In this document: piece by piece, positions 4,262 through 41,199 of the stretch
Layout: every line of letters starts with the position of its first letter
How positions within the stretch are numbered: position 1 is the first letter of the stretch
From: a virus
Virus record (IMG/VR): IMGVR_UViG_3300036980_000356
Span: 1 to 41,199 of that record
Strand: one strand, 5' to 3'
DNA length: 41,199 bases
Made by a program: the position numbers and the translations under genes
The notes under the pieces: generated by a model
Databases searched by the model: none
The model's input: only the letters and a program-made list of their open reading frames with translations
Told to the model about the DNA's origin: nothing

Positions 4262-4292
4262 GGTGTAGCCTCCTTGTTTTGGTTAGGGGTTA

Positions 4293-4849: not shown

Positions 4850-4864
4850 ATGTCATCACCTCCT

Positions 4865-5530: not shown

Positions 5531-5533
5531 AGC

Positions 5534-6318: not shown

Positions 6319-6328
6319 ACCTCACTCC

Positions 6329-6604
6329 TTAAACCGGAAATGGATAGGGATAACACCAGTCAATTATTGGTGTCCCCTTGTCTGGCCAAAGACCAGGACT
6401 ATATACGCAAGTCGTATCTTCTGAGACTTGGCAGGTTAGTACCTGATCTGTTTCAATCAGATCAACCATAAAGCGTTGACCGTACAGAGGCTTGAATACG
6501 AAAGGTGGGATGAACTTGAAACGAAGCCAAGGGCAAATATCACGGTGATCATTAACGAGACAGTCGATGCGACCCTCGCACCACTCACAAAGGTGTTTAC
6601 GCAT
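6329..6604 (-). CDS. Protein with N-terminal CxxCxxRIDCL motif, paralogue of 4865-5194
   Basis: A 91-residue protein that opens MRKHLCEWCEGRIDCL (motif 6-16), with ICPW (23-26) giving a fourth Cys eight residues on. It then has PPFVF, C58, C66, GLWPDKGT and YPFPV. The shared order with 4,865-5,194 shows a duplicated gene. GGAGG lies 4-5 nt before the ATG, after the hairpin at 6,617-6,636. It is the first gene downstream of the AAA+ ATPase and is probably co-transcribed with it. Function unknown. Confidence 0.75.
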   Translation of the reverse strand: MRKHLCEWCEGRIDCLVNDHRDICPWLRFKFIPPFVFKPLYGQRFMVDLIETDQVLTCQVSEDTTCVYSPGLWPDKGTPIIDWCYPYPFPV

Positions 6605-6616
6605 AGTACCTCCATG

Positions 6617-6636
6617 GGGGGAGCCGAAGCTCCCCC
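6617..6636 (-). other. UUCG-capped intergenic hairpin
   Basis: On the minus strand GGGGGAGC, TTCG, GCTCCCCC gives an 8-bp stem with the extra-stable UUCG tetraloop. It sits between the ATPase stop and the next ribosome binding site. No T tract follows, so RNA stabilisation or processing is more likely than termination. Confidence 0.6.
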
Positions 6637-6648
6637 TTGAGGGTTAAC

Positions 6649-20760: not shown

Positions 20761-23700
20761 TTAAATCCGAATCCCGGTAGAAAGTCCGAGCCCTCTTCCA
20801 GTAATACTAACGCCTCCAACACCTCCGAAAGCGATCCTACGGATAGCAAGGGTCAAGTGAAACACGGAGACGATGTTATAGGTATTCCACTTCGTATTGA
20901 CTGTGACTTCATGAATCGACTCTGTAATAGCTACGCGCTCCACGACGTTGTGGGTGGAGATAATTACTCCGACTTCGAGAGGAGTAATATTTGTACTCTG
21001 GAGTTCAGCATCCGAGATTACATTGTTGAGGACATAGGAAACTTTATCAACCCACCCTGCATGAGAATCTCCTCCTGCGTCGCCGTTGAAGAAGCTCCAC
21101 TCTATTGGGTGTACTCCTTCATCAATATGGATAGTCTTCTGGGCCCATACGAGAGGATCATTCGTCCCATAGATAGTATCTACAGGCCAATCATCTACGG
21201 AAAAGGTGAACGTATCAGTCATACCTCCCGCCGAGTCTACAGCCCACCAGAAACTCAAATCACCCGGGCCGGTTACGGAGGTAGTCATTTTTGAATTTAG
21301 ATACGCGCCTTCCTGTGACAGCTTGACGGATGATGGTACGTAATCGTAATCCCAAGTCGGCTGATCTGGTGGAGGACCGCTTGTTATGTACAAAGTAACA
21401 GAACCTTCATCGTAGTAGCAAGACCCGTGAGTTCCTGGATCCCCCGACTCTACCAGTTGGCCAATTCCATTGTCGGTGATAGTTCTGCTCCCGATGTGTA
21501 TCACTACACTTCCGGGAACAGTTGGGGTCCGTTCACCTAACGTAAAGATTTGAATAACCCACTCACCGCCAATAAAGACCCAGATGCTTCGGCCAAGGGT
21601 GGCTTCTCCAACCACTGATCGGGTATCGCATGCTACAGATTCTTCGATGGTGGGGAGAGTACTTCCACTGAGAGTTAAAACTAAATCCCAATTGTCAATC
21701 GCGTCATTGAATGGGTGCGTCGTGGAGACTTCCACATCGTAAAGAGTCCGCACTAAACTCAGTTTACCTACCTCGACAATCATATCGAAGTTGATGGTGG
21801 GCTCAAGTAAGCCCACAAGGATATTTGAAGTTTCGGCTGTATCATAAACATAAGTTCTAGACCCCGCTAACTCTTTAACTAGATAGATTTCGGTATCCGA
21901 AAGCCTTTTGTTCCAAACACACCAGTCATCAATCTGTCCGTCATAACAGCCGGCACCTTGAAAAGCACCAATGTTGAAGTCCGCGGAGGATGAAAGGTAA
22001 AGAGCGTTTGTGAAAGTCATAGGGAAAGTTAACGTTGTTCCAGTTGAGACTCTATACAGAACCGCGTATGCAGACTTAGCAACTCCATTAAAGGTTAGCG
22101 CGAAGTGATACCACTCACCTGGTACAATTGTAAAGCCGGTGTCCATCTGTTCAGAACTCGTACCGCCGGGACCTCCCCAAAAAATCATAAGCCTCCCAGA
22201 GGCTTCGTGGGAAATTCCAAGAGAGCGCCCGCCAGAGGCAGAGTAATACTTTCCGCCCAAACGCATCGCTGCGCCAGGGGTGATCCGGGATTTAAACCAA
22301 AACGTCCACGTTCCGATCTTCGCTGTTTCAGTACTTTTTAAGGGGAAGCCGGGTGAAAGATTGGTATTAGTTCGACTGTAGTACTCGGTGGTACCGGGTA
22401 CGAGTTGCACACACGCATTGCCTTCCGGCATTCCTGAGGCGATAGTATCAGGGGTGCCGTGGGAAGTTAAAACATTAGTAGAAACGGAGTCAGTAGTTAA
22501 AGCTCCACTATTGAATTTGAATCTTGCTTTTAAACTAGGGTCACTGAACATGTTGTAGACATACTTGGTTGAAATCCCGATATCAGTGTGTTGGATCGCC
22601 CTAAGGTGGTGTATTGGAGCTGAGTGAGGTAACTTAATGTTTGGTATGTGGAAGGTGAAGGCACCGCTAACCACACTTACAGGTACTTGAACAGGAATGC
22701 GTGCAACCGCAGACTTAGGGGTCACGCTTATACTAATACAGTCTGTAATAGCTAATGCATCGGGACCAAACTCTTCTAGATGCCCATAAGCTGGGATCCC
22801 AGACGTTCTGATCAGATCGATATTGGAAGGGGTTAATAGATTATCAAATACTGCAAGCTCATCTAATATCCCATCGTAACCATACACTGCATTTTCATAG
22901 GCTGCAATACCGCTGACAGTTAAAGCACTAGAGCCAACGTACATTTCTGTTGTCGGGGTGAAGGAAGATTCATAAACGGTTTGGGCAGTATCATCCCAAA
23001 TTCTAATGTAAATACTTTTATTTATCCCATCCATAACTACTGCGACGTGATACCACTGCCCGACGACTAATGTTGGATTCGTTGTTGCAAAAGTCGCTGT
23101 AGAAGTTCCGTCATTGCTCCAGTGAACGCGAATCTTACTTGAGTTGATTGCAATGCCAAATGAAATTTGTTCAGCGGTATAATTATACTTAGCGAGGACT
23201 CGCATACTTTGACTGCCCGCAACCGTTTCAGGCTTTATCCAAAAACAAGCGGACATAGTTTTTGTAGTGTCGCCACTCTTGAGAGGGAAGCCGTCGTCCA
23301 GATCTTCGTCTTCTATTTGGAATTTATTGAGAGAAGAAAGCTCAAAGTCAGCGGCGCCAGCCCCCTGCTTGTAGCCCCCAGTAGATTCGGTAACATAGTA
23401 GTAGTCTGTAAAATCATTGCTACCTTTGGAGTCGATAGTCAGGGCGCCGGGTTCAAAGTTCCATAGAGCTTTACAGTGGGGTCCCCCCAACTGTATTCCG
23501 TGTTGAACTCCTTTTATTGGAATGCAGGACGCGGTCAGCGAAAGAAGGTCTGCGCTGTGAGAAACATTATCAGTGATGGTGGCGTGCGCATTGAAGACTA
23601 CTGTTGAAAGATTGAGTAAGTCAACATTAAGAATACTAGAAGTAATAACATCGCAATCCAAATTACTCCATATAAGGGAGATGGGTGCCGGACCTAAAAC

Positions 23701-25902
23701 AATTTGAACGTCGATGCCGACGACGATGGTTGTTATGACTGTTACTTCATGTAGTATTAATAGTGCGTGCGGGGGGTCTACAAGAACATAGAGATCCGGA
23801 TTGTCCGGATTTGGATTAGATTTGGGGTCTTTATCCAGTTGAACAATTGTTTTTCTAGGCAGCGTTGTCTTAACAGTGTAGGCAGGTGTAAAGTCTTTGT
23901 AGTAAGTCTCAGTGTAATAAACGTTTGACGGGATAATATTATTTACACTACTAATCCATCCAATAGCCCCCCCAACATAAACCAGCCTTCCCGTATCTGG
24001 GTCTATGGGAAAAGTTATAGAAAATTGCGTAGGCCTTCGTGGTTTAATTGCAATATCGTTTGTGATGGTTTCATTGACATCCATCACTTTAATACTATTA
24101 TAACTTCCAATATACATCTTGGTCAGACAGTCGTATGGCGTGGTGAATAGAGTTCCATAGACACGATATTTCCATGAAGCATCTCTTCTGACTAATTGCG
24201 GATCTCCTTTACCCTCTACAAGCTTATAGATAGCGGACCTTTCACTAGTCTCAACGTCGAGCGCCATGTAGATATTTCCATTGAACGACGTCAAGCTAGT
24301 AAATATGTCATCGTAACTCGAGTAAGTATCATTTGGCCATTGAGAAACAATAGTCCAACTATGGCCATCTGCTGTAGCAATGATCCTATACCCTTCATAG
24401 GTTTGAGGCCCATACGTATATCCAGGGGGAGGCTCACCGTGCATCTTAACACTTGCGTAAAGTTTACCTCCATGCGAACAAAGACTCACATAGTCTGTGT
24501 AAGCATAGTGGATTAGACGCCCCAAAAACGAGACCCCAAGGGGTTCCTGCGTCGACCAAGAAGTACCATTGAAGACTATAATTTTCTCGCAACAAGCAAT
24601 GTATAACTTATCATTGTGGATGACCATATCATTTGGCCAAGCATCTACATACCCTTCCACAGTAGGATTTGAAACAGTGTAGACATTAGTAACGGGGCCA
24701 ATCCCTGCGCGAGGGTCAAAACGAAAGACACGAGTATAATAAACTCGGGGGGTAGTAGCCGACTCATCCTTCATAACAAAGTAAATTTTATCTTTATAAA
24801 CTATTAATCTACAGCCATTGGTGGAGTTTCCATCCATCCACATACTTGAAGTGGGGTAACGAGTTCCATACCAAGGGCCCCCCCTTCGAACTCGACGCAT
24901 TGTTTGTATATCTAGTACTTCAGAGAGCACGTACTCAAAGTTACTTCCAGTGGGGAGTACTGGAACAAATTCGCATGAAATCATATACCAACGGTTCTCG
25001 TGCCGTACCATCCCAAGGCAATTAAGATCCCCTGCTTGAGGATTGCCCGCGACTTTCTTCCAGGGTAGACTTCCTGCGGGAACTTCAGTATAGATATCAA
25101 TCGGTCCAGTGTCGTCTACATATAAAGGATTGAGCGTTAGACTTAAAGTTCCAGTTTCCGCAACTACTGAAGCACCACTTCCAAAAGTTCCACTGCGAAC
25201 CTGATCCATCTCACTGACATTTAAAAACCGATTGAAGACAACCACTTCATCGAAACTTCCTTTAAACGTCATGTATTTATAACCATACCCAGAACGAATA
25301 TCGGCTCGAGTACCGACACCGAAATTTGAACCAATCACTAGCTCAGCGGTAAAGGTGCTCCACCAGGCATAGGTGATACCAGTTGCAACTCGATACACCC
25401 GAACATACATTAACTTATTAATTCCATCGACAGCAAGGGTGATATGGTGCCACTCATTATCAAAGAGTTGAATGAAAGTATTCCTTATCTGGTCATTAAA
25501 TTTAACTCTAAGGTTATAAAAGCTACCTCCATAGCCAACACCCAGCGAGCACATATTAATATCATCAGTATTTATAAAGCCTAGGAGGGGATCAGATTGG
25601 GCGACGTCCAAAGGTTTTATCCAACTACAAATAGTCATCGTCTTTGCGGTATCGCCAGTTTTGAGGGGGAAGCCCGCGACTAGATCAACATTGTCAATTT
25701 TGAAACAAGGACCCAAACCTTGCTGCGTAGGATCTCCGGTTAGAGCTACACACCCAGCTCCCTCTCTAAAGTCTGAAGTATTAGCTGCGGGGTTATTAGC
25801 ACTCTGAAGAGTATTAGTACTTTTAGAGTCAACGGTAAGAGCGCCGCTCTCAAACTTCCAAAGTGCTTTACAAGATGCGTCTTGGGAGAAATCATTCGCC
25901 AC
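20761..25902 (-). CDS. 1,713-residue LamG/beta-propeller tail adhesin
   Basis: A very long probable tail fibre or receptor-binding protein. LamG-like domains lie at about 1-245, 809-1034 and 1124-1344, each with ALWKFExGALTxDS-type starts, GFPLKxxDTxK and W.H...DGINK, ending in DE.VVFN. Between the first two is a region with repeated KLY/GNIY-type blades (about 280-650: RWYMIS, KIYFVM, KLYIAC, KLYASV, NIYMAL) that looks like a beta-propeller. A C-terminal jelly-roll (about 1517-1620, FWWAVDSAGG, DKVSYVL) and a Gly-rich tail follow. Sugar binding is the family expectation. Confidence 0.85.
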   Translation of the reverse strand: MANDFSQDASCKALWKFESGALTVDSKSTNTLQSANNPAANTSDFREGAGCVALTGDPTQQGLGPCFKIDNVDLVAGFPLKTGDTAKTMTICSWIKPLDVAQSDPLLGFINTDDINMCSLGVGYGGSFYNLRVKFNDQIRNTFIQLFDNEWHHITLAVDGINKLMYVRVYRVATGITYAWWSTFTAELVIGSNFGVGTRADIRSGYGYKYMTFKGSFDEVVVFNRFLNVSEMDQVRSGTFGSGASVVAETGTLSLTLNPLYVDDTGPIDIYTEVPAGSLPWKKVAGNPQAGDLNCLGMVRHENRWYMISCEFVPVLPTGSNFEYVLSEVLDIQTMRRVRRGGPWYGTRYPTSSMWMDGNSTNGCRLIVYKDKIYFVMKDESATTPRVYYTRVFRFDPRAGIGPVTNVYTVSNPTVEGYVDAWPNDMVIHNDKLYIACCEKIIVFNGTSWSTQEPLGVSFLGRLIHYAYTDYVSLCSHGGKLYASVKMHGEPPPGYTYGPQTYEGYRIIATADGHSWTIVSQWPNDTYSSYDDIFTSLTSFNGNIYMALDVETSERSAIYKLVEGKGDPQLVRRDASWKYRVYGTLFTTPYDCLTKMYIGSYNSIKVMDVNETITNDIAIKPRRPTQFSITFPIDPDTGRLVYVGGAIGWISSVNNIIPSNVYYTETYYKDFTPAYTVKTTLPRKTIVQLDKDPKSNPNPDNPDLYVLVDPPHALLILHEVTVITTIVVGIDVQIVLGPAPISLIWSNLDCDVITSSILNVDLLNLSTVVFNAHATITDNVSHSADLLSLTASCIPIKGVQHGIQLGGPHCKALWNFEPGALTIDSKGSNDFTDYYYVTESTGGYKQGAGAADFELSSLNKFQIEDEDLDDGFPLKSGDTTKTMSACFWIKPETVAGSQSMRVLAKYNYTAEQISFGIAINSSKIRVHWSNDGTSTATFATTNPTLVVGQWYHVAVVMDGINKSIYIRIWDDTAQTVYESSFTPTTEMYVGSSALTVSGIAAYENAVYGYDGILDELAVFDNLLTPSNIDLIRTSGIPAYGHLEEFGPDALAITDCISISVTPKSAVARIPVQVPVSVVSGAFTFHIPNIKLPHSAPIHHLRAIQHTDIGISTKYVYNMFSDPSLKARFKFNSGALTTDSVSTNVLTSHGTPDTIASGMPEGNACVQLVPGTTEYYSRTNTNLSPGFPLKSTETAKIGTWTFWFKSRITPGAAMRLGGKYYSASGGRSLGISHEASGRLMIFWGGPGGTSSEQMDTGFTIVPGEWYHFALTFNGVAKSAYAVLYRVSTGTTLTFPMTFTNALYLSSSADFNIGAFQGAGCYDGQIDDWCVWNKRLSDTEIYLVKELAGSRTYVYDTAETSNILVGLLEPTINFDMIVEVGKLSLVRTLYDVEVSTTHPFNDAIDNWDLVLTLSGSTLPTIEESVACDTRSVVGEATLGRSIWVFIGGEWVIQIFTLGERTPTVPGSVVIHIGSRTITDNGIGQLVESGDPGTHGSCYYDEGSVTLYITSGPPPDQPTWDYDYVPSSVKLSQEGAYLNSKMTTSVTGPGDLSFWWAVDSAGGMTDTFTFSVDDWPVDTIYGTNDPLVWAQKTIHIDEGVHPIEWSFFNGDAGGDSHAGWVDKVSYVLNNVISDAELQSTNITPLEVGVIISTHNVVERVAITESIHEVTVNTKWNTYNIVSVFHLTLAIRRIAFGGVGGVSITGRGLGLSTGIRI

Positions 25903-26479: not shown

Positions 26480-27481
26480 TTAACTATCCGCTTTAATACC
26501 TATCTGTAAACCATTGATTTCATCAACGGTCCAACGTTGTCCAGTATTTGGATTCGCATCCCAAGTCGCCCTAGTATAATCGGAAAAGCCACAGCCGAGT
26601 CCAATGATCTTAGGATCGGTCCAAGTAGTTACTCCCGCTGAAAGAGTCGATAATCTCAAAGTGGAGGGGGAGGTAGTAGTTGACATCTTGCGGGGCATAC
26701 AAATGACTTGGATGCTGGAGACGGCAGTTGCTCCTGCCGGTAAATTTGCCAACGAAAGAAAGTCTTGACTGGAAGTGTCTAGTGATGAAAGATAGTCAGT
26801 TGTAGTTTTCACAACCTCATCAACGGCAGTGTAGTGAGTAAGTCCTGCGGGAGTGGGCGTCCACTGTTTAAGAGTTCCATCACCCGTCGGAGGAAGATAT
26901 ACGACGTGCTGTCCATTCGGCCAAGAAGTATTCGAGGAGCCGGATTTATCATTGATTACTATGTCATCGAGGCTAACGTCTTCCAGAGGAGAGTAGAACC
27001 CGACTCGATCCATTGTAGCGATGTAATCAGTTTTTCCCGTGAAGTACAGTTCGGTACTTCCATCAATTCTAACTTCCGCGATCCCATCTGTAGCATGTAA
27101 TTTTAAACGGACTTCAACACACGCCCACGTAGCTAGAGGCATAACGGTTAGTCCAGTAGTACCTGCAAAAGTTCCGGCCGGAATTTGAAAGTAGAGGTGA
27201 TGAGATGCATCCCAATAAAGTCTAAGACCACTAGTGGTAGAGTTTCCAATCGACATTAATGGGTTAATGCCTCCAGAGCTCGCCCTTCTATAGCAGCACT
27301 GAACAAAAAGTTCAGTGCAGGGAGTAAAGAGTTGGGTACCTACCCACCCTCCTCCCAAGTACCACCTGCCCGAACTATAAGTCCCAGAGCGCTTCTGGCT
27401 GTTGGTAGGATCAGCGTAAGATCCACGCCAGTAGAGATCATTGACATCAAGCTCAAACCCAGTCATAAATACTAACGCCAT
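26480..27481 (-). CDS. GFE-type jelly-roll tail protein (paralogue 5)
   Basis: A 333-residue protein of the family that starts MALVFMTGFE. Shared landmarks are a concanavalin-like first half ending in DDIVINDKSGSSNTSWP, then WTPTPAGLTHYTAVDE, a DYLSSL/D.F segment and VDEINGLQIG near the end. Five copies lie in this block. They are probable virion surface or receptor-binding proteins. AAATTTAATATAGGGG precedes the ATG, so a private promoter is possible. Confidence 0.8.
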   Translation of the reverse strand: MALVFMTGFELDVNDLYWRGSYADPTNSQKRSGTYSSGRWYLGGGWVGTQLFTPCTELFVQCCYRRASSGGINPLMSIGNSTTSGLRLYWDASHHLYFQIPAGTFAGTTGLTVMPLATWACVEVRLKLHATDGIAEVRIDGSTELYFTGKTDYIATMDRVGFYSPLEDVSLDDIVINDKSGSSNTSWPNGQHVVYLPPTGDGTLKQWTPTPAGLTHYTAVDEVVKTTTDYLSSLDTSSQDFLSLANLPAGATAVSSIQVICMPRKMSTTTSPSTLRLSTLSAGVTTWTDPKIIGLGCGFSDYTRATWDANPNTGQRWTVDEINGLQIGIKADS

Positions 27482-27592: not shown

Positions 27593-28618
27593 TTAACCAG
27601 ACGATTGAAAGCCTAGTTCTAAATTATTTATAGAAGTAATATCCCAAGTTGTACCTGCGGGGTTTGTAGCCCAAGTACTACTGGCTAAACCGTAAGTAGT
27701 TGAAGCAGCTACTGGAGTTCCTTGATAGACAGTGGAACCAACTTTTATCGAAGGTGATATAGCTCCTGAACTTCCAGCAGCGTCTTTCATTACCCAAGCA
27801 TCACTTTGTACTATTAAATGACCTGTGGGGATCACGTCTTCAGGAAGAGACGGGTGGGTGAAGGTGTCGAGAATTCCAAAGTTGAAGGTTGAAAGATAGT
27901 CGGTAGCGGATGGGGGTACTTCATCGATCGCAGTGTAGTGAGTTAGTCCAGCTGGAGTGGGAGTCCACTGTTGAGAAGTTCCATCAGCCGTTGGAGCTAG
28001 CCGTACAATCTTCAACCCTCCAGGCCACGAATTATTTATACTTCCAGTTGTATCATTAATTACCACATCATCAACAAAGCTGTCATGCTGCCCTGTGCTC
28101 TTGCCTGGGAGACCGAAGGCGCTAATGGAAGTATATGATTGGTATTGGGTGTTACCGTAGAAGGAGCCAGCTGGAATACCATTGAGTCTTATCTCAAAGA
28201 CTCCGGCGGTTGGATGAATTTTAATGTGAAATTCAACAACATACCACTGATCCGGCCACATCAAAGTATTTCCAGTAAAGATGTGAGTGACGTACTCTCC
28301 GAAATACAACGAAACTGCGTAGCCTACTGCTGTGTGTACGGTGAAAACGGCGTTATTCCCACTTTTGAATAGCCAATTGGTATAATTATAATCAGTGCCG
28401 GGCCAAGATAAAAAGTACGTTGCGAATTGAAAATAAAACTCACTAAGGGTCAGCCCTCCGGGTAGTGACCTCCCCACACCTGTCGTTTGAGCATATCTTA
28501 CACTATAAGTACCTGAGCGAACGGGCGTCGTCACGAAAAGCGGGGCTGCGATATACCAATTGCTCCACTCTGGCTCCCAAGCGCGGTGTTCAAAGCCACT
28601 CATGTAAACTAAAGCCAT
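27593..28618 (-). CDS. GFE-type jelly-roll tail protein (paralogue 4)
   Basis: A 341-residue protein starting MALVYMSGFE, closest to the copy at 26,480 (DGTSQQWTPTPAGLTHYTAI and NDTTGSINNSWPGG are near-identical). The first half is a lectin-like jelly-roll, with GNTQ in the loop before the DDVVIND strand. The second half is a smaller beta domain ending SINNLELGF. The ATG directly follows the upstream TAA. Confidence 0.8.
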   Translation of the reverse strand: MALVYMSGFEHRAWEPEWSNWYIAAPLFVTTPVRSGTYSVRYAQTTGVGRSLPGGLTLSEFYFQFATYFLSWPGTDYNYTNWLFKSGNNAVFTVHTAVGYAVSLYFGEYVTHIFTGNTLMWPDQWYVVEFHIKIHPTAGVFEIRLNGIPAGSFYGNTQYQSYTSISAFGLPGKSTGQHDSFVDDVVINDTTGSINNSWPGGLKIVRLAPTADGTSQQWTPTPAGLTHYTAIDEVPPSATDYLSTFNFGILDTFTHPSLPEDVIPTGHLIVQSDAWVMKDAAGSSGAISPSIKVGSTVYQGTPVAASTTYGLASSTWATNPAGTTWDITSINNLELGFQSSG

Positions 28619-29256: not shown

Positions 29257-32200
29257 TTAACCAGATACTACCGTAATATCATCAACCCAAACTACCGCGG
29301 CAGGAACACTCTTCAAGGTAATATTCGGGGTCTGCATTATTAATTCGATATCGACTGTACCCGTATTCGTAGGAGTTATTTGTTTTGAAACTGAAACCCA
29401 TGTATCTGAAACGTCTGACATAACAAGATCGTCTTCAACAACAACCAAATTTGAGGGAGCAGTTCCACCTTGAGTGAAGAGGCGAAGACGAGCTACTTCA
29501 ACATAGGTCCCACCATTATTAGCTGAGACGTTTAGTCGGTGGTACTTATATGTGGTGGGACTCGAGCAAGTATAACTTTTAACAGTTCCAGCTACAGTCC
29601 AAGTTTGATTCGTCTGTGTGTCTATGGCTACATAACTCGAATCATTATTGGACCCCTCGAACGTCCAGTTCTTTGGTAGATTATTTAACTGGCCATCGTA
29701 CCGACTTCTAATAGAGTATGAAGAAACGGTAATGCCAGCGGGGTTAAAGGCTTTCAACCACTGAGGCGCCCCGGAAGAGCTTGCCCAATAATAACCGATC
29801 TGGGTATCCGCAAAGGCAGTATACGCCCTATTGGTCGTAGCGTTATACTCAGTTGAGGCTGAGGCGACGAAAGGATAGGGCTGTTCATTGGAGATCATTG
29901 GTCCAAACTCCGTTGATGTATCTCCAAGAGTCCCGGTTAAGTATCTAAGTCGAACTGTTGGTAGAGGGTCACTGCCACAACTGAAGTTCTTTCTAAGCCA
30001 AACTGTGATGGTCAACGGTACGTTCGCGGAAGCGATTGTATTGAGTGGAATAATGAGTGGCATACTATACGCAGGGTTGGTGCAACTTCCAAGTATAATT
30101 TTCATAGAAGGAGGCACAGTGCGATACACTTCCTGCTCTGAGGACACGCAAAAGGCATAAGGTTGATTCAACACGTGACGTCCGTAATATGTAAAATTAT
30201 TCCCTTGCTGCTGGTTAAAATTCTCAAACGAAATTTCGCCACTCCATCTATTGTTATTCGGCTCGAATGTGGGAAGGTCTCCTTGGGGGAAAAGACAATT
30301 TCTAAACACCATTGACTGCCCCCGCATATCACTATACACGTAAAACTCACGAAGTACGGGAGCGCCTTCTCCTATAATCGAGTCTTGAAATATAACATTG
30401 GAAACAGGGCCGGCAGATATCTGAAGGAGTCTTGCACAATTTCCACATTTAAATCGTTTGAATGTTCCAGAGTCCCAACCGTCTGCGAGCGCCCAGGTGG
30501 CACCAAAAACCTCTAAGTCATTAACTTCAAAGGCTACTGCTGAGGCGGCGCCTGCTGAAAGGGCCCCTGTAGTATTTTCAGCAAAAAATTTATTTACCCG
30601 AAAGTTGTGAGAAGTTGCGGATGCAATACGACAGTATCCACTAGAATTAAAGATATAAACATTTTCTAAACTCCACCCCACCCCACTGATATCTAGTAGA
30701 CTGGTACTCGAGCCATTAAAAAAGCCAACTCTGGAAACATCCCAAAAGTTGAAGACGGTGTTGACAATGAAGTCAACCGCGTAGTTTGGTGTACCTAGAA
30801 GTGTAAACCCGTCTTGTACAGTCGTCGAAGTGTTAACTCCGCACCTTAATGAAATTGGAGAAACTTGAAAACCGCGGACAGCAGGCAGGCCCCAATGGGT
30901 GGAAGGCACCCCTGAAGGGAGAATTTTTGAAACTGTTAGTCCAGATCCAGAGTTACCCCTATATGGTCTCCACAATGTAACAGTTAGTCCCGCACAAGAG
31001 TAGACGGAGTTCATTTGATCGACGGTTCCAATACGGAGTACATCATTCTGAGCTAAGTTTGGGCAGGTGGGGCTGGTGACTATAAAACTATCTTTGGTTG
31101 CTGAGAAGGTGCTGGGCAGTGGAGACTCTAAAGTTTTTGCAACATTAATAATATCCCCAGACCCGACCATCTTACCATAAGGAGACCGCCACGCTTCAGA
31201 CCAAGAGTAACCTGAAGCAACTTCCGAACCAAACACGGGATCGATGAAATGCTGCCTACGGTGATATGGATATCTTACTCCGGCTTGTAGGAACGTTCCT
31301 TGGACGTGTGCGGGATATGTTAACGTTCCAGAGAAGGCTCCGGAGCGAATTGCGTCCACGTCTTGGATGGAAAGAACTTTATTAAACATTAAAGCTTCGT
31401 CAATACTTCCATCAAAGAAGTTTGTTCCAGCTCCAGCGTTCTTCTCACACCCTAAACAAAAGTCGACATCTACTATTCTCAACGTGTTCGCCATATTCAA
31501 TTCCAGGTGCCGGATCATTCCAGTTCCATCTTCATAAATTCTCAAGTAGGCCCGCTTATTAATCCCATCAATTGCAAAAGCTATATGATACCACTGACCC
31601 GCCCATCCAATATTAGTACCCGGGTAGCCGGTGAGGGTGGAAAGCGATTCACTGGTCTGCCCCGAAACTCCATATCCAAGGGAACCGTATATAAAGTAGT
31701 TAGTGCCGTTATACGTTCTAGTTAAAGACCAACCAACTTTGGATGCATTCCAGTCCCACTTTGAAGCAATTGTGTGGTACGTACTAGTAGTCGGATTAGT
31801 CAGAGGGCGAATCCAACACATGAAAGTCATCGCTCTAGATTGCCCTGTAGACTTGAACGGGAAGTCCGCGGACATATTTGCTTCTGTTATAAGATGGGCT
31901 TGAGAGCTAGCCCGTGCATAGTTAACAGCGCAAGCTCCCTCTTTGAATTTTAACCCAGTTGCAAGGGTAGCTTCAGTGGGGGTTGCAACTGCAGTTAAAG
32001 TATTTGTACCTTTTGAATCGGTAGTCAAAGCTCCAGACTCAAATCTATATTGTGCGATGAGATCAGAAGTCGAGGAAAAGTTATTACTGTATGAAAGACC
32101 TGTGCCTGTGTACACTCCGCGACGAATTTGATCTGCCTGTTGAAATGTTAACATCCTATTGAATACTACCACTTCATCGATATACCCTTCAAAAAGGGTA

Positions 32201-33537
32201 GTAGCGAGAGTAGAATATGAATTTTTTCCAAATGTTACAGGGGCAGCTCCGACCCAGATAGTGTTTGTGATTCCTGTGTTAATATATGAAGACCCCATCC
32301 CAGTCCGTTCCCACCATACCTTTACTCCAAGAAATTTATTGACTCCATCAAATACAATTGTAACATGATGCCAATAATGAATGTCGAGATACAATCCAGT
32401 ATTATATGTTTCATGCGTAGTACCCGTACCCGAACCCAGAGACACACCAATTTGTCGATCATTGATATGGACCCAAAAAGTTCGGTAGTTTTGATCAGTA
32501 TCCATCTTAGAGAAGACGGCGCGGTAGTTTGAGTCTTGATAGGTAGGTTTGACCCAGAAGCAGAACGTTCCGGTCTTCGTTGTATCAGTACTTTTTAACG
32601 GGAAACCCGCAGCAAGATTTGAATCTGCGATCAAAGCTCCGTGGTATCGAAGACGGTTTACATACAGACCCCCGCCGCCTTCTTTATAGTAAGGTAATGT
32701 TTTAACGGGGGTAGCTCCGTTCACACTCATCAAAGTATGTGAACCCTTTGAGTCAGAGAGGAAGTTCGCAGTAGGTTCAAATCTCCAAAGAGCTACGCAA
32801 GTAGAGTCTCCAGAGAAATCATTAGTGGCTGCGACGGGTGATGGATATGTAATGGGAAAGGTGCCACTGCGTACTGCATCAACTTCATCGTCTGTAAGAC
32901 AGGAGTTGAACACGACAAATTCGTCAAGCTTTCCATCAAAGGTATAGTTACTAGTATTATCGGAGTAACCCCCAATTCTAAAATCTTGAGCGTTGGAAGC
33001 TGAGACTACAGTGAAAAAAACATAAGTATCAATCTGACCGTCTTGAGCTGAGTAAACTCTGACTGTTAAGGTCCGCTCCGTAGAGCAGATTATAAAGGAG
33101 ACGTGATACCAAACACCGGGGGTTAACGTTTTTGTTGCATACTGAGTAGAAATACACGCAGCAGTTAAAACGTTAGTGGTACCAATTATCATTCCCATAT
33201 TTGCGGAGGCGTATGTACCCTTATCAAAAATTCCCTGCCACTGAGATGGCGTTGCAGCTAGCTTCATCCAGAAGCAAACGGTCATGCGCTTGACTGCGTC
33301 TGCACTCTTAAATGGCCAGCCAGCGGGGAGATTTGCATCCGTTATTGTAAAGTATTGATCCGAGGCATTAACAAAGTTAGCACTACCCGAACCTTCTTTA
33401 AAATCACTACCATCAGAAGTGGGAGGGCTTGTGGAGGGAGTAAGGGTATTTGTACCTTTTGAATCGGAAGTCAAAGCTCCCGGTTCAAAGTTCCAGCGCG
33501 CAATACACCTAGATTCACTTGAAAAGTCGTTAGCCAT
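29257..33537 (-). CDS. 1,426-residue tail adhesin: LamG x3, beta-helix, F5/8C
   Basis: Probable tail spike/fibre protein. Three LamG-like domains (about 1-231, 247-469, 496-732) share DSKGTN/H.L, KEG, FPFKS or FPLKS and D.VVFN phrases. A long region (about 750-1150, many short beta strands such as FRVNKFFAEN and VNDLEVFGATW) looks like a right-handed beta-helix. A final jelly-roll is interrupted by a discoidin-type F5/8C domain (about 1230-1360; QWLKAFNPAG, WTFEGSNNDSSY, YKYHRLNVSANNGGTYVEVA). The ATG overlaps the upstream stop by one base. Confidence 0.85.
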   Translation of the reverse strand: MANDFSSESRCIARWNFEPGALTSDSKGTNTLTPSTSPPTSDGSDFKEGSGSANFVNASDQYFTITDANLPAGWPFKSADAVKRMTVCFWMKLAATPSQWQGIFDKGTYASANMGMIIGTTNVLTAACISTQYATKTLTPGVWYHVSFIICSTERTLTVRVYSAQDGQIDTYVFFTVVSASNAQDFRIGGYSDNTSNYTFDGKLDEFVVFNSCLTDDEVDAVRSGTFPITYPSPVAATNDFSGDSTCVALWRFEPTANFLSDSKGSHTLMSVNGATPVKTLPYYKEGGGGLYVNRLRYHGALIADSNLAAGFPLKSTDTTKTGTFCFWVKPTYQDSNYRAVFSKMDTDQNYRTFWVHINDRQIGVSLGSGTGTTHETYNTGLYLDIHYWHHVTIVFDGVNKFLGVKVWWERTGMGSSYINTGITNTIWVGAAPVTFGKNSYSTLATTLFEGYIDEVVVFNRMLTFQQADQIRRGVYTGTGLSYSNNFSSTSDLIAQYRFESGALTTDSKGTNTLTAVATPTEATLATGLKFKEGACAVNYARASSQAHLITEANMSADFPFKSTGQSRAMTFMCWIRPLTNPTTSTYHTIASKWDWNASKVGWSLTRTYNGTNYFIYGSLGYGVSGQTSESLSTLTGYPGTNIGWAGQWYHIAFAIDGINKRAYLRIYEDGTGMIRHLELNMANTLRIVDVDFCLGCEKNAGAGTNFFDGSIDEALMFNKVLSIQDVDAIRSGAFSGTLTYPAHVQGTFLQAGVRYPYHRRQHFIDPVFGSEVASGYSWSEAWRSPYGKMVGSGDIINVAKTLESPLPSTFSATKDSFIVTSPTCPNLAQNDVLRIGTVDQMNSVYSCAGLTVTLWRPYRGNSGSGLTVSKILPSGVPSTHWGLPAVRGFQVSPISLRCGVNTSTTVQDGFTLLGTPNYAVDFIVNTVFNFWDVSRVGFFNGSSTSLLDISGVGWSLENVYIFNSSGYCRIASATSHNFRVNKFFAENTTGALSAGAASAVAFEVNDLEVFGATWALADGWDSGTFKRFKCGNCARLLQISAGPVSNVIFQDSIIGEGAPVLREFYVYSDMRGQSMVFRNCLFPQGDLPTFEPNNNRWSGEISFENFNQQQGNNFTYYGRHVLNQPYAFCVSSEQEVYRTVPPSMKIILGSCTNPAYSMPLIIPLNTIASANVPLTITVWLRKNFSCGSDPLPTVRLRYLTGTLGDTSTEFGPMISNEQPYPFVASASTEYNATTNRAYTAFADTQIGYYWASSSGAPQWLKAFNPAGITVSSYSIRSRYDGQLNNLPKNWTFEGSNNDSSYVAIDTQTNQTWTVAGTVKSYTCSSPTTYKYHRLNVSANNGGTYVEVARLRLFTQGGTAPSNLVVVEDDLVMSDVSDTWVSVSKQITPTNTGTVDIELIMQTPNITLKSVPAAVVWVDDITVVSG

Positions 33538-35267
33538 TATCTAATTGACAACACTCCCAACCTGATATTTCCTAAATCATCCGCAGTCCAAACTTGCCCC
33601 GTGACGGGGTTAGTCTCCCAGGTAAAACCATACCAGGCGAAAGAGTTTGTTAAGTTCAGATCAGTGGACTCAAAAATCGTACTACCGACTTGGACGATAG
33701 AATGTAAAACTGTGATCGCAGCTCCAGTAGTAATTGCGGAGCGTGCGAAGCAATTGGCTTGAATTGCCATGACATTGGTTGAGAGCCCTCCAGGCGAGGC
33801 CTCAAGACCAAATAGCTCAGTAAGTCCTGGAGACCCTACAGATAACATTCGACCGGCCCATGCAGACGCCAAAGGAGGGGGATACGGAAGAGCTCTGTGC
33901 CAGTGAAATGGAGAATAGGGCTCAACACTCCAACCCGTAGAGACATCACTACGGGGACTGAGTCCGACCACGTGGATATTATCCGGCCAAGAATTATTCA
34001 CACTGCCACTACTATTGTTAATGACGACGTCATCAATATATAAGTCGTTGGAGGTTGGAGATATAACTTCTAGGGAAGTATTGAGAGATGCAGTGAGTCC
34101 TGCATAGGCGCTTTGTCTGATGGAATCAATCGCGGGATCGTATAAAGGGCCATTGAAGACTAAGACTTCATCAATCTGCCCCTTAAATCCTCCTGATGTT
34201 ATAGTTTCCGATCCAATTATAAATGGAGAGGAGTTTGCCGCTCGCATCACACTATTCCACGTTTTCGAATAGTTCGTAACTGTTTGTGCGGTAACATTCC
34301 AGATTCTAAGTTTAGTGGTTTTCGCGACACCATCAAAAGCCATCCCAACGTGGTACCACTGATTTAATGTAATTGTAAAGGGATCCCACACTTCTTGGTT
34401 CTGGCCTGTTCCGTACCCCCACGATACCCGAAAAGTGTTGGATGAGGCATAGATGGCCGCGCCGATTGATAAAGCATTTCCAGCCCAGTTCCACTTACAA
34501 ATCATATAATTCATTGTGGAACCTCCGGGGGATGTAGTGCAACGAAACCAAAAACAATATGTACCCTTTAAGTTGGAGTCTCCAGTTTTTAATGGAAAGC
34601 CCGCAGCCAGGTTAGCGTCTGTAAGATATAGTGCGTTGGACCCATCAAACGATACTGAATATAGCCCCTCACGAAAGTTCGTACCATCTGCTGCGGGAGA
34701 ACCAAAGGTGGAGAGAGCTGGCTGAATATTTAAAGTGTCAGTAGTAAGGGCTCCGGTTTCCATTTGCCACTGAGCAACACAAGTTCCTTCGGCTGACGGA
34801 CGAGTGTCTCCAGTCCAAGAACACTCAGCAACTCCATTAAGCCTAACCTCTATCACACCACTTGCAGCGTAGTTGAAGTGAACCTCAATGGTATACCAAC
34901 AGTATTGTTGTAGAATAGTTATACCAGTGGCTCTTAGAGTTACCCCTCCATCCCCCGTATAAACTTCAATTCTACCCAACGAATTAACAACTAGAGTCGC
35001 TACAACGATAGAACCCACGTAAAACTTAATGTACACACCAGCAGCTGGAATTGCTTGCGTCCAGATAATCGCGACTTGGGTAAAGAGTTCAGTTTGACTT
35101 GGGGAGAAATTTTTTGTTACTTTATCTCCAACGTTAGTAAGGTACATAGCCCAGTAAGCGCCGCGTTTATAAGTCGCGGAGACTCCCGCATTAGCTCCAA
35201 GCGTAACAGAGGAAAAGAAGTCAAGGCTAGTTCCGGTTTCAAAACCGGACATCATGAGGTTAGACAA
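33537..35267 (-). CDS. GFE-type jelly-roll protein with inserted LamG domain (paralogue 3)
   Basis: A 576-residue protein starting MSNLMMSGFE. Residues 1-156 and 392-576 correspond to the jelly-roll and C-terminal parts of its neighbours. About 235 residues between them (157-391) are a complete LamG-like domain (CVAQWQMETGALTTDT ... DEVLVFNGPLYDPAID). The insertion follows GDTRP, where paralogues have GNTQPG. This is a nested domain gain. The C-terminal part (WTADDLGNIRLGV) is intact. Confidence 0.85.
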   Translation of the reverse strand: MSNLMMSGFETGTSLDFFSSVTLGANAGVSATYKRGAYWAMYLTNVGDKVTKNFSPSQTELFTQVAIIWTQAIPAAGVYIKFYVGSIVVATLVVNSLGRIEVYTGDGGVTLRATGITILQQYCWYTIEVHFNYAASGVIEVRLNGVAECSWTGDTRPSAEGTCVAQWQMETGALTTDTLNIQPALSTFGSPAADGTNFREGLYSVSFDGSNALYLTDANLAAGFPLKTGDSNLKGTYCFWFRCTTSPGGSTMNYMICKWNWAGNALSIGAAIYASSNTFRVSWGYGTGQNQEVWDPFTITLNQWYHVGMAFDGVAKTTKLRIWNVTAQTVTNYSKTWNSVMRAANSSPFIIGSETITSGGFKGQIDEVLVFNGPLYDPAIDSIRQSAYAGLTASLNTSLEVISPTSNDLYIDDVVINNSSGSVNNSWPDNIHVVGLSPRSDVSTGWSVEPYSPFHWHRALPYPPPLASAWAGRMLSVGSPGLTELFGLEASPGGLSTNVMAIQANCFARSAITTGAAITVLHSIVQVGSTIFESTDLNLTNSFAWYGFTWETNPVTGQVWTADDLGNIRLGVLSIR

Positions 35268-36261
35268 TCTTCGCTCCTACTTCAAGTAAATCTGCATCCG
35301 CTACAGTCCACCTTAATCCAGTCTTGGGGTTCACGTTATATAAGTCACAGCGTAACGTGAAGGACAAAGAGGGATTAAAGGCTTCCGAAAATTGAATACC
35401 TTGTGGACAATTTAGAGCACTTAAGGCAATCGAGGTAGTTGACCCTGCAACCCGTTGAATCCAAAGATCTGAACTTATTCCGAGTACCTGTCCCGTATTA
35501 CCGGGAGTATTGGTAATCCCAAATAGCTCAAGAGTTCCAGACGTTGTTGACGACACGTAATCAGTTACGGTTGGGGGCGCATCGTCAACAGCTTGAAAGT
35601 GGGTGCTTCCCGCTGGCGTTACATTCCACTGCGACGTACTGCCAATTGCATTGGGCTTAAGTAGTATAACTGAAGCGCCGTCTACCCATGAGTTATTCAT
35701 TGATGTTGTGGTATCGTTTATAACGATGTCATCCCAGTACGTAGTGTAAATCCAACTCGGGGACATTCTTAACGCATCAAGCGTTGAGATTACTCCCGGT
35801 TGTGTGTTGCCGTAGAACGTACTATCGGTCAGTCCATCAACTCGAGTTTCGATTATTCCACTCACACTATTAATCCTAAGGTGGAATTCCAAAACGTACC
35901 ATTGGTTGTCTTGTAATACTGTCGTGCCCGTGGCTCTTAAAGTCCCGCCGTCACCTGTGTAAGCTAAGAGGTGGCCATTTGCAGGATCAAGGCCATATGA
36001 AATAATGACAGAAGATTGGCCCCCGCCCAGTATTTGTAAAAAGGAAGTGAGTTGGCTTGAGCGGTCTGGCCACCGCGCTGCGACCTGGATATAAACTTCT
36101 GAGTTAGCTGGAAATGAAATATAGCCCGCGCCCCCGTAAGGGGTATAGAAACTATAAGTTCCAGTTCTTGAGAATGTATTAGAGGGCGCTGCGCCCCCTT
36201 CAGCCCAGTTTAACTCACCAATACTTCCCCACTCGAACCCACAAGCCCGAATCATTGCCAA
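35260..36261 (-). CDS. GFE-type jelly-roll tail protein (paralogue 2)
   Basis: A 333-residue protein (MAMIRACGFE start). It has YTGDGGTLRATGTTVLQDNQWYV, the loop GNTQPG and WDDIVINDTTTSMNNSW, then the C-terminal WTVADADLLEVGAKI. It is the simplest form of the family and the best reference for the insertion in paralogue 3. The stop region overlaps the next start by 8 nt. A lectin-like surface role is expected. Confidence 0.8.
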   Translation of the reverse strand: MAMIRACGFEWGSIGELNWAEGGAAPSNTFSRTGTYSFYTPYGGAGYISFPANSEVYIQVAARWPDRSSQLTSFLQILGGGQSSVIISYGLDPANGHLLAYTGDGGTLRATGTTVLQDNQWYVLEFHLRINSVSGIIETRVDGLTDSTFYGNTQPGVISTLDALRMSPSWIYTTYWDDIVINDTTTSMNNSWVDGASVILLKPNAIGSTSQWNVTPAGSTHFQAVDDAPPTVTDYVSSTTSGTLELFGITNTPGNTGQVLGISSDLWIQRVAGSTTSIALSALNCPQGIQFSEAFNPSLSFTLRCDLYNVNPKTGLRWTVADADLLEVGAKIV

Positions 36262-36750: not shown

Positions 36751-37785
36751 TCAGAAACTGGAGCGCATTCCTACCTCAAGGGCATTAATTTCAGCCACTG
36801 ACCAATGAGTACCCCCAGCAGGATTCTGCTCCCAGTAACTCCCATACAGCGTGTAATACATATCAAGTTCGTGGGTGCTTGAGATAAAAGTTGACGCGTT
36901 TGTTTGGATTGCAACCTCCAAATTTCGTCTAGAGCCACTCGTCTTACACGCCCATGCATCGGCCCTAACAGCCTCAATTGAGTACGCCTCAATCGGAAGA
37001 TCCTCTGTTAAGTACAAGTCCAGTTTTCCTCCATACTCGGTGAAAAGGTATTCAGTTGGGTCTGCAGATGGAGCTCCGTCCACACATTCATAATTATTAA
37101 GAGCAGTGGTAGAGGTCTTATCCCATCTCTCCGAGCTGCCCACACCCCAAGGACGTAATAAAAATACAGAAAGACAATTCACCCAGGAAGTGTTCACACT
37201 TCCTGTAGTGTCATTGACCACAATATCATCAACATAAAATCCAGAGTAGTAGCCGCTCACGATACTTGACTCAAATCTAATTCTATTAACCTCATAGTCA
37301 GCACCTGGTTGGGTTGGTCCACCATAAGAAGTATCAGGGATTCCATCCATTCGAAGATCGAATAAACCACTCGAAGGGTCGATGACAACATGAAGTTCGA
37401 CGTAATACCAAACATTTTGAACGATTGTGGTGTTTCCGGTCATTCGAAGTGTACCAGTAGAAGGGTCGCCAGTATAAAACTGGAGGTGCTGTGAGACACC
37501 ATCAAACGCGATTGAACCTATAACAACGCCTTCATACCTCCACGAAAAAACTCTAAAGACGCTAGTGAAGGCTTGACCGGTCCGAAAAGCAAATTGAACA
37601 TAGAAATCGGAAACTCCAGTAGTGAATTGAGTTTCAAACCACGATGAACCGGAAACACTTATAGAGTGTTCTCCGGAGCGAACGGGATGTCCAGAAGTTC
37701 TAGTCTGGAGAGCGCAAGAGTAGTACGCTGTGATATTCTCGGCCATGTTGTTCCATTCAAAACCGTTCATGTAGATTACAGCCAT
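36751..37785 (-). CDS. GFE-type jelly-roll tail protein (paralogue 1)
   Basis: A 344-residue protein (MAVIYMNGFE start). The jelly-roll half has TGTLRMTGNTTIVQNVWYYV, GGPTQPG and VDDIVVNDTTGSVNTSWV; the C-terminal half ends HWSVAEINALEVGMR. It is the first copy in transcription order within the window. No LamG insertion. Binding to host surface sugars is inferred from the fold. Confidence 0.8.
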   Translation of the reverse strand: MAVIYMNGFEWNNMAENITAYYSCALQTRTSGHPVRSGEHSISVSGSSWFETQFTTGVSDFYVQFAFRTGQAFTSVFRVFSWRYEGVVIGSIAFDGVSQHLQFYTGDPSTGTLRMTGNTTIVQNVWYYVELHVVIDPSSGLFDLRMDGIPDTSYGGPTQPGADYEVNRIRFESSIVSGYYSGFYVDDIVVNDTTGSVNTSWVNCLSVFLLRPWGVGSSERWDKTSTTALNNYECVDGAPSADPTEYLFTEYGGKLDLYLTEDLPIEAYSIEAVRADAWACKTSGSRRNLEVAIQTNASTFISSTHELDMYYTLYGSYWEQNPAGGTHWSVAEINALEVGMRSSF

Positions 37786-37788: not shown

Positions 37789-38949
37789 TTACTCCTCGAC
37801 CATCACTTCAATAAATACGGCCTTCACGTGACAGCTGTTAATATCTTTAAATTGAAACGTTAGTTCGTCGTTATCGAACCTAACCAGAGGGTAAAGGCAC
37901 ACGCGATCATTGAGAAGGGTCTCGTGCGTAAGAGATTCACATGTAAACTCGTTACCGCCTATATGCCCAGAAACGACAACCTCAAATGGAGTAACGTTAG
38001 TCCGAAAAGGTTTAACTAGAAGTCTTGGAAACCTTTCCCACATGTACACATACCCCAGGGGAAGAAAGATCGAAATGTCTCCACTGTCTGAACCGCGGGT
38101 GATTTGCATTTCAAACATCCACGTCGGTAGGTAAAACTGCACAGTCTTACCTTTTGCTGCGAAGAATAAACCTCTCAGGCCCTTCCATTGTGTGTCATAG
38201 AAGTTCCAAGTTAATTCAAATGTTAATCTATTAGTTGATTCAAAAGCCCTCAATTGAAAAATCCCGTTCTCCGTACCTAAAACATCTCTAACAATTTTGG
38301 GAGAGTTATACTTCGCTTCCATTGGTTCATGTAAATATGAAGGCATACTCGAGATGTCTGCACCCTCCCACGCCCCACCATCAATCTTCAATTTGGCCAT
38401 AAATGCGGGACATCCCCCCACGAAGTCAATAGCTTCATGATCAACAATACCACTGATACAGGGCATCATATACCCACTCCTGGTGTCGTAAGGGAAAGTA
38501 TCAGGTTGGGAGATGGGGGTGTAATCTCGAGTAAAGACCGAATCTAAATAAATCGTACTTCCAGCGATCGATGTAATCAGTTTCACTTCGTGAAGTGAAA
38601 CATCTGAAGACCGAGTAAAGTAAACATACTCCCCGGGGCTATATTCCGTTACATCTTGTGGTTTAACCTCATTCCAAATTCCAGCGGAGACTCCATGGGG
38701 CATCGAACTTCGAAGTTGCCACAGGGGGACAATGCACAACTCAGCTCCGGCTTGAAGAACTGTGGAGAGTTGAGAGAAAGCAAATGAGTCTGCAGATCCC
38801 AATGTGAACGAGAGTTCGCGTTGAGGTTTTGTATAGAGATCGAATCTTGCTTCATACCCTGAGCTGGTTGAAACATCCTCCGTCTTAAACTTATACTTCA
38901 AGTCAAATTCGAAACTATCACCAGCTGGGAACCCTGGAATTAAGAGCAT
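37789..38949 (-). CDS. YLPTW tail protein (short paralogue)
   Basis: A 386-residue protein paralogous to the C-terminal half of 38,949-41,199. Shared landmarks are LKYKFKTEDV, G.EARFDLYT, G.AGSTIYLDS-like strands, KxKIDGGAW, GTENGIFQLRA, KGLRGLFFAAKGK, FYLPTWMFEM and CLYPLVRF. Such repeated beta proteins with a YLPTW phrase appear among distal tail proteins of some large phages, as far as I recall. The start shares one base with the upstream stop. Confidence 0.75.
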   Translation of the reverse strand: MLLIPGFPAGDSFEFDLKYKFKTEDVSTSSGYEARFDLYTKPQRELSFTLGSADSFAFSQLSTVLQAGAELCIVPLWQLRSSMPHGVSAGIWNEVKPQDVTEYSPGEYVYFTRSSDVSLHEVKLITSIAGSTIYLDSVFTRDYTPISQPDTFPYDTRSGYMMPCISGIVDHEAIDFVGGCPAFMAKLKIDGGAWEGADISSMPSYLHEPMEAKYNSPKIVRDVLGTENGIFQLRAFESTNRLTFELTWNFYDTQWKGLRGLFFAAKGKTVQFYLPTWMFEMQITRGSDSGDISIFLPLGYVYMWERFPRLLVKPFRTNVTPFEVVVSGHIGGNEFTCESLTHETLLNDRVCLYPLVRFDNDELTFQFKDINSCHVKAVFIEVMVEE

Positions 38950-41199
38950 TAAATTAACACCTCAATGAATGAAACTTTCGATGCGCACTTGCCAATGTCA
39001 AGAAACTCAAAGATCAAGTCATCTTCTAAAAATCTAACTTGTGGGTAGAAGCATGCTCTATCACCTGCATAGATTGCTTTCTCTAAAGGTTCACAAGTAT
39101 ACCCAGTCGCATCCAGGGTTATATATGTAATATCGATTTTACAGCCCATACCCCCTCCAGGTACTACTGTCGTGGTCACATTATTTGCAACTTGGTATCC
39201 TTTTCCCGGGGTGACAAGAACCATAGCAAGGATTCGACCCTGGTCTCTAGTCCCTGTTTGAACCGACGTCACTCTGAATGTAGCTCCAGATCCCCCAGTT
39301 TGAGTTGGGGTGATAATATCCCCCACGTCGTATCCCGTCCCACCATGATCGAGATTCCAATGTTCGATCCCTGCGGGGTAGTTTGGTTCATCTCCTGTTA
39401 CAGTAACTACAAACCGATCTGCATTACGTCCAGATAGGAAGTAGAGCATTGGGAATCTACTTAAAAGTTGGACGTATGTGGGGTCTAGAGAAATAATAGT
39501 ATCTCCTTGTGCTGCATCCTGTAGCGCGGTTAACTCAAACACCCAGGTTGGTAAATAGAAGGGCCTCGATCTTCCCTTCGCGAAAAGGAAGAGTTCCCGC
39601 AACAACTTCCACTTGCTGTCAATGAAAGACCACTCAACTTCAAACGCCAATCTTGCAGTTGGAAAGTGAGCCATGATTTGTAGAATGCCATCTTCAGTCC
39701 CTGCTACAGTCTTTTCAATTCGGGGTGCAATATACGCCGCACGTAAAGGAACTTCATCGAAGGGTGGATACTCTATTGGAATTTGAGCTCCTGGCCACGC
39801 TCCCCCATCTACTTTAACTTTGACGAAGAAAGTGGGGCGGGGGCCGTGAAGTCCATGATCTTCAATATCTACAATACCGGTCATACAGGGTGCGATATAA
39901 GAACTGCGTTCATCGTACCGCTGAGTTACAGATGGCATTCTAAATGGGTGGTAGTGATGAATAAGGGGACTTGAGGTGTATAAGGCGTTACCTTGAATAC
40001 TGGAAATTGTAACAAGGTCAAAAATTTCTGTATCATTGGCACGCATCACAATCATATTCTCACCCGGACTATAATTAGATGCGTCATCAACCATTAAAAC
40101 AGTTTGGCCCGCGCGAGCATGTTCCACAATTGTAGAACGTAAAGCCCAAATTGGTGCGGAGAAAATAGCTGCCCCAGATCTTAGAACGCTCATAATGTGG
40201 AAATAAGCACCCTGATCGGAACTTCCTAGAGAAGCCTCGAGGTGTCGAGTTGGATAGGTGTATGTTTCAAAGCGACCCTCTTGGCTTGATCCATAATCGT
40301 AAGCGTACACGTCCGTCTTAAATTTATAACTTAAATGACAGAAGTCGATCGTTCCTTCTCCTGCTCCCCCTCCAGCTAGACCTCCGATTACGGGGGGAGG
40401 AGGAATTTTAGGAACAGGCTCAAGGATAAAACCAATCATAAGACCGGTAGAATCAACTCTACGTACCGGAGCTTGGTTGTACCCAACTAGCAGTGAAGTT
40501 GATTGAACCGTAACTTTGTACTGCTTATGATACCCCACTTTTAATGCAGACTCTGTAACAGCCACACCGTCTAGCTGCCCATTGTACTTACCAAGTCTGA
40601 TTGCATCCATTTCTAGAGGTGACCGGATTTCATTGAAGAGGACTAGTTCATCTAGATATCCATCAAAGAACGCCCCATCCTCTGATGGATCATTTCCTAC
40701 AATGAAGTTTCCTTCTCCAAACCTAAACGGTGTAACAGGGATAGCAATGTCTTGATGGTCATCCTGTGCAACAACAATTTGCCGCAGGAAGTCATCCCAG
40801 ATCTGGACATAAATTTTTCCAGAGATTCCTTCTACCGAAATTCCAATATGATACCACCTCCCCGTTACAAATCCGAAGCGGGGACTGACTTCATTTATTA
40901 TTTCTATTTCACTCTTAGTTGGAGCACCAGTATACCAGTGGTTATGAAATACCGTAAATTGTGGCCGATTGTAAATACAGCCGAAAGTAAAGCAATCGGC
41001 TTTGGAGAAAATCGTGGTACGCGGGATTGGAAAAATTCCAAAACTCTTAAACCGAACCCAAAAACAAGCAGACATGTTTGGGTTCTCTGAAGACTTGAAT
41101 GGAAAGTTATCAGATAGAGCGGCGGCAGGGCGATCCGCATATTGTGCAAGGCTGTGCGTGAAGTGAGCTGCCCAATCCCTCTCCTTATGTAGCATATCT
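38949..41199 (-). CDS. LamG plus YLPTW tail protein, 5' end beyond right edge
   Basis: At least 748 residues. The frame is still open at the window edge, and the visible start lies inside a LamG domain already begun (FPFKSSENPNMSACFWVR), so the ATG at 41195 is probably internal. The LamG part ends at about residue 210. A Pro/Gly linker (IPPPPVIGGLAGGG) leads to a YLPTW domain parallel to 37,789-38,949. Near the end about 90 extra residues (GGTGYDVGD, GGSGATFRVTSV, GKGYQV) have no counterpart there. Likely a distal tail adhesin. Confidence 0.8.
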   Translation of the reverse strand, partial: DMLHKERDWAAHFTHSLAQYADRPAAALSDNFPFKSSENPNMSACFWVRFKSFGIFPIPRTTIFSKADCFTFGCIYNRPQFTVFHNHWYTGAPTKSEIEIINEVSPRFGFVTGRWYHIGISVEGISGKIYVQIWDDFLRQIVVAQDDHQDIAIPVTPFRFGEGNFIVGNDPSEDGAFFDGYLDELVLFNEIRSPLEMDAIRLGKYNGQLDGVAVTESALKVGYHKQYKVTVQSTSLLVGYNQAPVRRVDSTGLMIGFILEPVPKIPPPPVIGGLAGGGAGEGTIDFCHLSYKFKTDVYAYDYGSSQEGRFETYTYPTRHLEASLGSSDQGAYFHIMSVLRSGAAIFSAPIWALRSTIVEHARAGQTVLMVDDASNYSPGENMIVMRANDTEIFDLVTISSIQGNALYTSSPLIHHYHPFRMPSVTQRYDERSSYIAPCMTGIVDIEDHGLHGPRPTFFVKVKVDGGAWPGAQIPIEYPPFDEVPLRAAYIAPRIEKTVAGTEDGILQIMAHFPTARLAFEVEWSFIDSKWKLLRELFLFAKGRSRPFYLPTWVFELTALQDAAQGDTIISLDPTYVQLLSRFPMLYFLSGRNADRFVVTVTGDEPNYPAGIEHWNLDHGGTGYDVGDIITPTQTGGSGATFRVTSVQTGTRDQGRILAMVLVTPGKGYQVANNVTTTVVPGGGMGCKIDITYITLDATGYTCEPLEKAIYAGDRACFYPQVRFLEDDLIFEFLDIGKCASKVSFIEVLI

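Follow-up and report, generated by a model that had tools for sequence, protein, structure and literature searches.

Has a viral jelly-roll protein acquired a complete LamG domain inside one of its own loops? The question is raised by a window that comprises the whole of IMG/VR record IMGVR_UViG_3300036980_000356 (41,199 bases, of metagenomic origin and possibly a genome fragment), where five paralogous genes lie among several LamG-bearing ones. An earlier note on this DNA had proposed that the third paralogue carries a LamG domain within a jelly-roll loop, that the other four lack it, and that the locus catches a receptor-binding protein in the act of gaining a domain by internal insertion.

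Five paralogues of one phage family

Paralogue 3 (33537..35267, minus strand) is encoded by a single, uninterrupted reading frame of 576 aa that starts at a TTG codon and shares 8 bases with the end of paralogue 2. It sits within a run of genes of the same direction, and all the window features described below are on this minus strand. Read 5′ to 3′, the order is two phrog_1082 genes, paralogue 1 (36751..37785), a phrog_644 gene, paralogue 2 (35260..36261), paralogue 3 and a gene for a LamG-headed protein of 1426 aa (29257..33537), which has three N-terminal LamG modules related to the insert and a tail-protein family match close to its C-terminus. Further downstream are paralogues 4 (27593..28618) and 5 (26480..27481), together with a protein of 1713 aa (20761..25902) containing three LamG modules of the insert's kind; the two large proteins hold six such modules between them. 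A tail-assembly-like protein matching phrog_1082 (38949..41195) is cut by the end of the record and has LamG sequence at its visible start.

All five paralogues match phrog_2448, a family without assigned function. The profile matches of paralogues 1, 2, 4 and 5 have E values of 5e-17 to 2e-29, and these four share 26–34% mutual identity and lack the insert altogether, as had been proposed. Paralogue 3 matches the same family in two stretches (E 3.8e-19), and its two halves jointly span the profile, making it a member over its whole length.

A LamG module between two strands of the host jelly-roll

To locate the boundaries of the insert we used a host profile of 36 host proteins, with paralogue 3 excluded. 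Profile positions 3–173 matched residues 3–173 of paralogue 3 (E 2e-25), and positions 173–333 matched residues 403–572 (E 1.2e-23). The two matches complement each other, so no host sequence has been lost or duplicated, and the proposal that both halves of the host domain remain intact holds. On this basis, paralogue 3 is divided into a host N-half (residues 1–156, 34800..35267), the LamG insert (residues 157–391, 34095..34799) and a host C-half (residues 392–576, 33540..34094). The insert had previously been placed at 34090–34800, in close agreement with our limits, and its length of 235 aa is the same. In an alignment of 38 proteins from viral contigs, one Syntrophales metagenome-assembled genome and the window, 36 proteins, including the four other window paralogues, show a clean gap over the insert, which is present only in paralogue 3 and in its orthologue at L009:10487-12169 (record IMGVR_UViG_3300005077_000044).

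The insert passes the curated cut-off of Pfam PF13385 (Laminin_G_3) with 51.5 bits against a threshold of 27.6 (E 1.6e-13, best stretch residues 234–378), and shares 29–34% identity with the LamG modules in the two large proteins nearby. The corresponding insert in the orthologue scores 41.7 bits against Laminin_G_3. When host and LamG were compared with hhalign as a test of common origin, the match had an E value of 0.0014 and a probability of 18%.

A sequence search for solved structural relatives of the host protein returned none that was credible, and the host fold is described here from AlphaFold2 models. Paralogue 2, used as the empty reference, was modelled with a mean pLDDT of 92.6 and a pTM of 0.90, and comprises a ConA-like jelly-roll followed by a C-terminal domain. 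Its nearest solved folds by Foldseek are AbnA domain 4, trans-sialidase, CBM66 and galectins, all of which are ConA-like sandwiches. In the model of paralogue 3, the host parts mostly have pLDDT values of 71–97 with an overall pTM of 0.60, and they reproduce the jelly-roll and C-terminal domain of the empty members, with host strands corresponding one to one to those of paralogue 2. The N-half forms thirteen jelly-roll strands, ending with strand 146–153 (144–151 in paralogue 2), while the C-half supplies the final two, 397–402 and 409–418 (161–166 and 174–183 in paralogue 2), and the C-terminal domain. The LamG therefore falls between strands 146–153 and 397–402. The LamG part itself is poorly modelled (pLDDT about 30–77), as the alignment there is just two sequences deep. 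Aligning hosts and LamG modules together in MAFFT had placed host jelly-rolls onto LamG columns, so the LamG rows were excluded from the structure alignment at a cost to the quality of this part of the model. With pLDDT this low, assignment of the LamG fold rests on the Pfam and profile matches.

The models also refine the site of insertion. The earlier note had the empty paralogues passing straight from a G.TQ motif to the DDIVIND strand; we find instead that a short strand intervenes (161–166 in paralogue 2, 397–402 in paralogue 3), which places the insertion in the loop just before this short strand and not directly at the DDIVIND strand.

Could residues 1–156 and 392–576 simply be separate domains that flank a LamG in a row? 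The pTM of paralogue 3 is just 0.60, which leaves some room for such an arrangement, but we consider it most unlikely, since the two segments complete each other as a single domain, and in paralogue 2 that domain folds as a unit. Moreover, the paralogue 3 model superposes on an entire empty viral protein, BFVD A0A6B9SUB2 (334 aa), over 589 columns with a TM score of 0.85 on the target, compared with 0.90 for paralogue 2 in the same viral-structure comparison. Both host halves thus share one frame, in which the LamG appears as a gap. The contrary arrangement that the earlier note had asked to be looked for, a LamG lying outside the strands of a single jelly-roll, is not seen in the models of paralogues 2 and 3. 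A LamG module, complete by sequence, nested in one jelly-roll loop is accordingly what the profile matches, the gap in 36 homologues, the predicted strands and the superposition all show. The nesting is far beyond chance, and the same architecture is present in the orthologue from another record.

A separate viral protein in BFVD, A0A6J5PUL0 (493 aa, from an uncultured Caudovirales phage and annotated as F5/8 type C), gave a 504-column alignment with the model of the empty host (TM score 0.82 on the query). As judged from the models, this perhaps represents another type of module inserted into the same host fold.

Age, direction and recurrence of the insertion

The nested orthologue in IMGVR_UViG_3300005077_000044 is 39.7% identical to paralogue 3 in the N-half, 39.5% in the LamG and 38.5% in the C-half. 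Gene order around it matches that of the window, with a paralogue 1-like gene, phrog_644, an empty member, the nested member and a LamG-headed gene in succession. The two nested hosts are sisters in the host tree (support 100/99), and the two inserts are sisters in LamG trees (support 93/92, or 93/86 with more rows). Equal identity across the three segments indicates that the gain predates the split of these two phages. The insertion is therefore old, and the insert has co-evolved with the host gene since before the phages diverged. To say that the locus catches the gain was too strong, given an orthologue that carries the insert at equal divergence. The same comparison bears on whether the architecture is an assembly chimera or a frameshift artefact, as might be feared of a metagenomic record. 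We regard this as scarcely credible, as the frame is uninterrupted and both the architecture and the neighbours recur in an independent record at 39% identity.

The tandem LamG array of the large neighbouring protein is also older than the phage split: in the tree, each of modules 2 and 3 of the 1426-aa protein has its own partner among the two modules of the 1176-aa protein of the orthologue-bearing phage (L009).

The edges of the insert bear no mechanistic scar. Direct repeats at the edges were no longer than in shuffled sequence (longest shared word 5 nt), no target-site duplication was found, and there was no shift in composition at the edges (GC uniform at 0.44–0.48). A recent copy from a neighbouring LamG was considered and rejected: DNA similarity to the other LamG modules is confined to short pieces, the best being 32–36 nt, and there is no long similarity that would point to a donor.

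As the host tree was drawn midpoint-rooted and its direction is not independently rooted, the LamG-bearing form might in principle be ancestral, with the empty members having lost the module by deletion. We consider this very unlikely. Empty members make up 36 of the 38 aligned proteins, the filled clade is a single pair of tips among them, and loss would require many clean deletions at one point; in addition, another family member carries LamG at a different site (see below). The clean gap in the empty homologues and the complementary halves uphold acquisition by internal insertion. A search for empty versions of the gene, which had been suggested as a check, succeeded in part: it yielded the 36 empty homologues, but no empty orthologue of exactly paralogue 3 among the relatives searched. 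Among further IMG/VR records, the only orthologue with this insert was the one already known, and INPHARED phages gave neither a match to paralogue 3 nor a near DNA match.

The second site is in record IMGVR_UViG_3300037048_000032, where a 567-residue family member (L065:4272-5972) has a LamG at residues 228–446, beyond the jelly-roll, which is left whole, and a short way into the C-terminal domain; measured by the host profile, positions 1–219 come first, then the LamG, then the remainder. This member belongs to a different host clade (support 100/98), and its nearest relative is empty (L014:8867-9859, support 94/92). The two loci share neighbours, with an empty member upstream and a LamG-headed gene downstream. 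The L065 LamG is an independent insertion at a different site, with an empty syntenic relative, and the phrog_2448 family has thus undergone at least two independent LamG insertions; acquisition recurs. The filled members seen are this protein and, at the shared loop, paralogue 3 and its orthologue.

Each of the three phages has a LamG-headed gene immediately after its nested gene. Local recombination with the adjoining gene is therefore a plausible source of the inserts, though the trees single out no donor.

Other arrangements of LamG were also observed. An N-terminal piece of LamG and a LamG without it occur in successive genes at L009:1299-2972 and 3019-6828, L010:6072-7790, L013:1424-3142 and 3197-6838, and window positions 40572–41199. 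The first gene stops 5–6 residues past the N-terminal piece of LamG (profile 1–35), and the next contains, 550–615 residues in, a LamG that lacks this part; the window record stops at the corresponding restart point. These could reflect a single domain divided between two proteins, the splitting of a gene, or a copy that has decayed. In the Syntrophales metagenome-assembled genome (JAQTXE010000001.1, L028:8001-9966), an empty host gene is followed by a LamG-headed gene, and this contig offers a clue to which hosts these phages may infect.

Putative role in adhesion and relation to known tail proteins

Neighbouring genes match phrog_1082 and phrog_17517, which gives paralogue 3 a tail context. 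ConA-like and LamG sandwiches often bind carbohydrates, and the two termini of a ConA-like sandwich are generally near each other, which would let the host sheet remain closed around such an insert. We put the probability at roughly 0.7 that paralogue 3 serves a tailed phage as an adhesin subunit associated with the tail, with LamG inserted in a jelly-roll loop as a second lectin-like head. The host domain is predicted to be a ConA-like jelly-roll built from residues 1–156 and 392 to about 420, with the C-terminal domain after it. Sequence alignment and structure prediction show that an entire LamG module, of the kind heading the adjoining gene, entered the loop between two successive strands. 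Judging from the general fold, it would hang from that one loop and provide one more contact with the surface of the host cell, probably by binding carbohydrate. The lectin-like folds and tail-gene context make receptor or glycan binding plausible.

Homologues resembling phrog_2448 recur in Chi-like, phiCbK-like (Caulobacter) and Brevundimonas phages. In the flagellotropic Salmonella phage YSD1 (PMC7385642), the homologue (gp33, L050:5689-6708) follows the tail fibre gene at a distance of three genes and is separate from the annotated distal tail protein.

The closest known analogue is the evolved Dit proteins of siphophages, in which CBMs are inserted in loops of the galectin domain and bind host cells (PMC7291167). 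Like paralogue 3, these proteins carry a lectin-like or CBM module within a loop of a tail protein of beta-sandwich fold, and the host fold is preserved (PMC7291167). Unlike in the evolved Dits, the host here matches phrog_2448, which has no Dit annotation, and occurs as five paralogues in one record, so paralogue 3 does not qualify as a Dit; the module is Laminin_G_3, insertion at this loop is known in two phages only, and binding is putative. LamG tail proteins are also known from Stenotrophomonas phage AXL3 (gp21) and its relatives, with a proposed effect on host specificity (PMC7504290). Gp21 resembles paralogue 3 in having LamG in a phage tail protein, but the available text of that source describes no internal insertion into another jelly-roll (PMC7504290). 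A similar contrast exists within the window, where Laminin_G_3 is N-terminal and in tandem in the 1426-aa protein but internal to another domain in paralogue 3. A search of the available literature for LamG nested in phage proteins found nothing.

The insert might instead be structural, serving as a virion spacer, a packing surface or an oligomer contact with no receptor binding. Family members have no known function, and five copies per genome are what building blocks might have. We think this improbable, though a serious alternative: glycan binding is frequent among LamG and ConA-like folds, further putative tail proteins of the window carry several LamG copies at their ends, and the CBMs inserted in other tail proteins of phages do bind to host cells (PMC7291167).

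The locus leaves the general understanding unchanged, as domain insertions have been reported in about 20% of multidomain proteins (according to the available text of PMC13114784) and phage Dits already use the same strategy; paralogue 3 is a new example of a known phage way of adding surface-binding parts. What the locus adds is a documented case of LamG entering the interior of proteins in a widespread, uncharacterised phage family; this has taken place independently at two sites, and empty relatives can be set directly against filled ones. L014 and L065 form a natural empty and filled pair for the effect of an inserted lectin module on adsorption. More tentatively, and with somewhat less than even confidence, phrog_2448 may be a general acceptor scaffold, in which short, multi-copy jelly-roll tail subunits repeatedly gain complete lectin-like modules at different loops, perhaps from the adjoining LamG-headed gene, yielding adhesins of one such fold within another that resemble evolved Dits. 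The findings suggest that phrog_2448 proteins are tail adhesion subunits.
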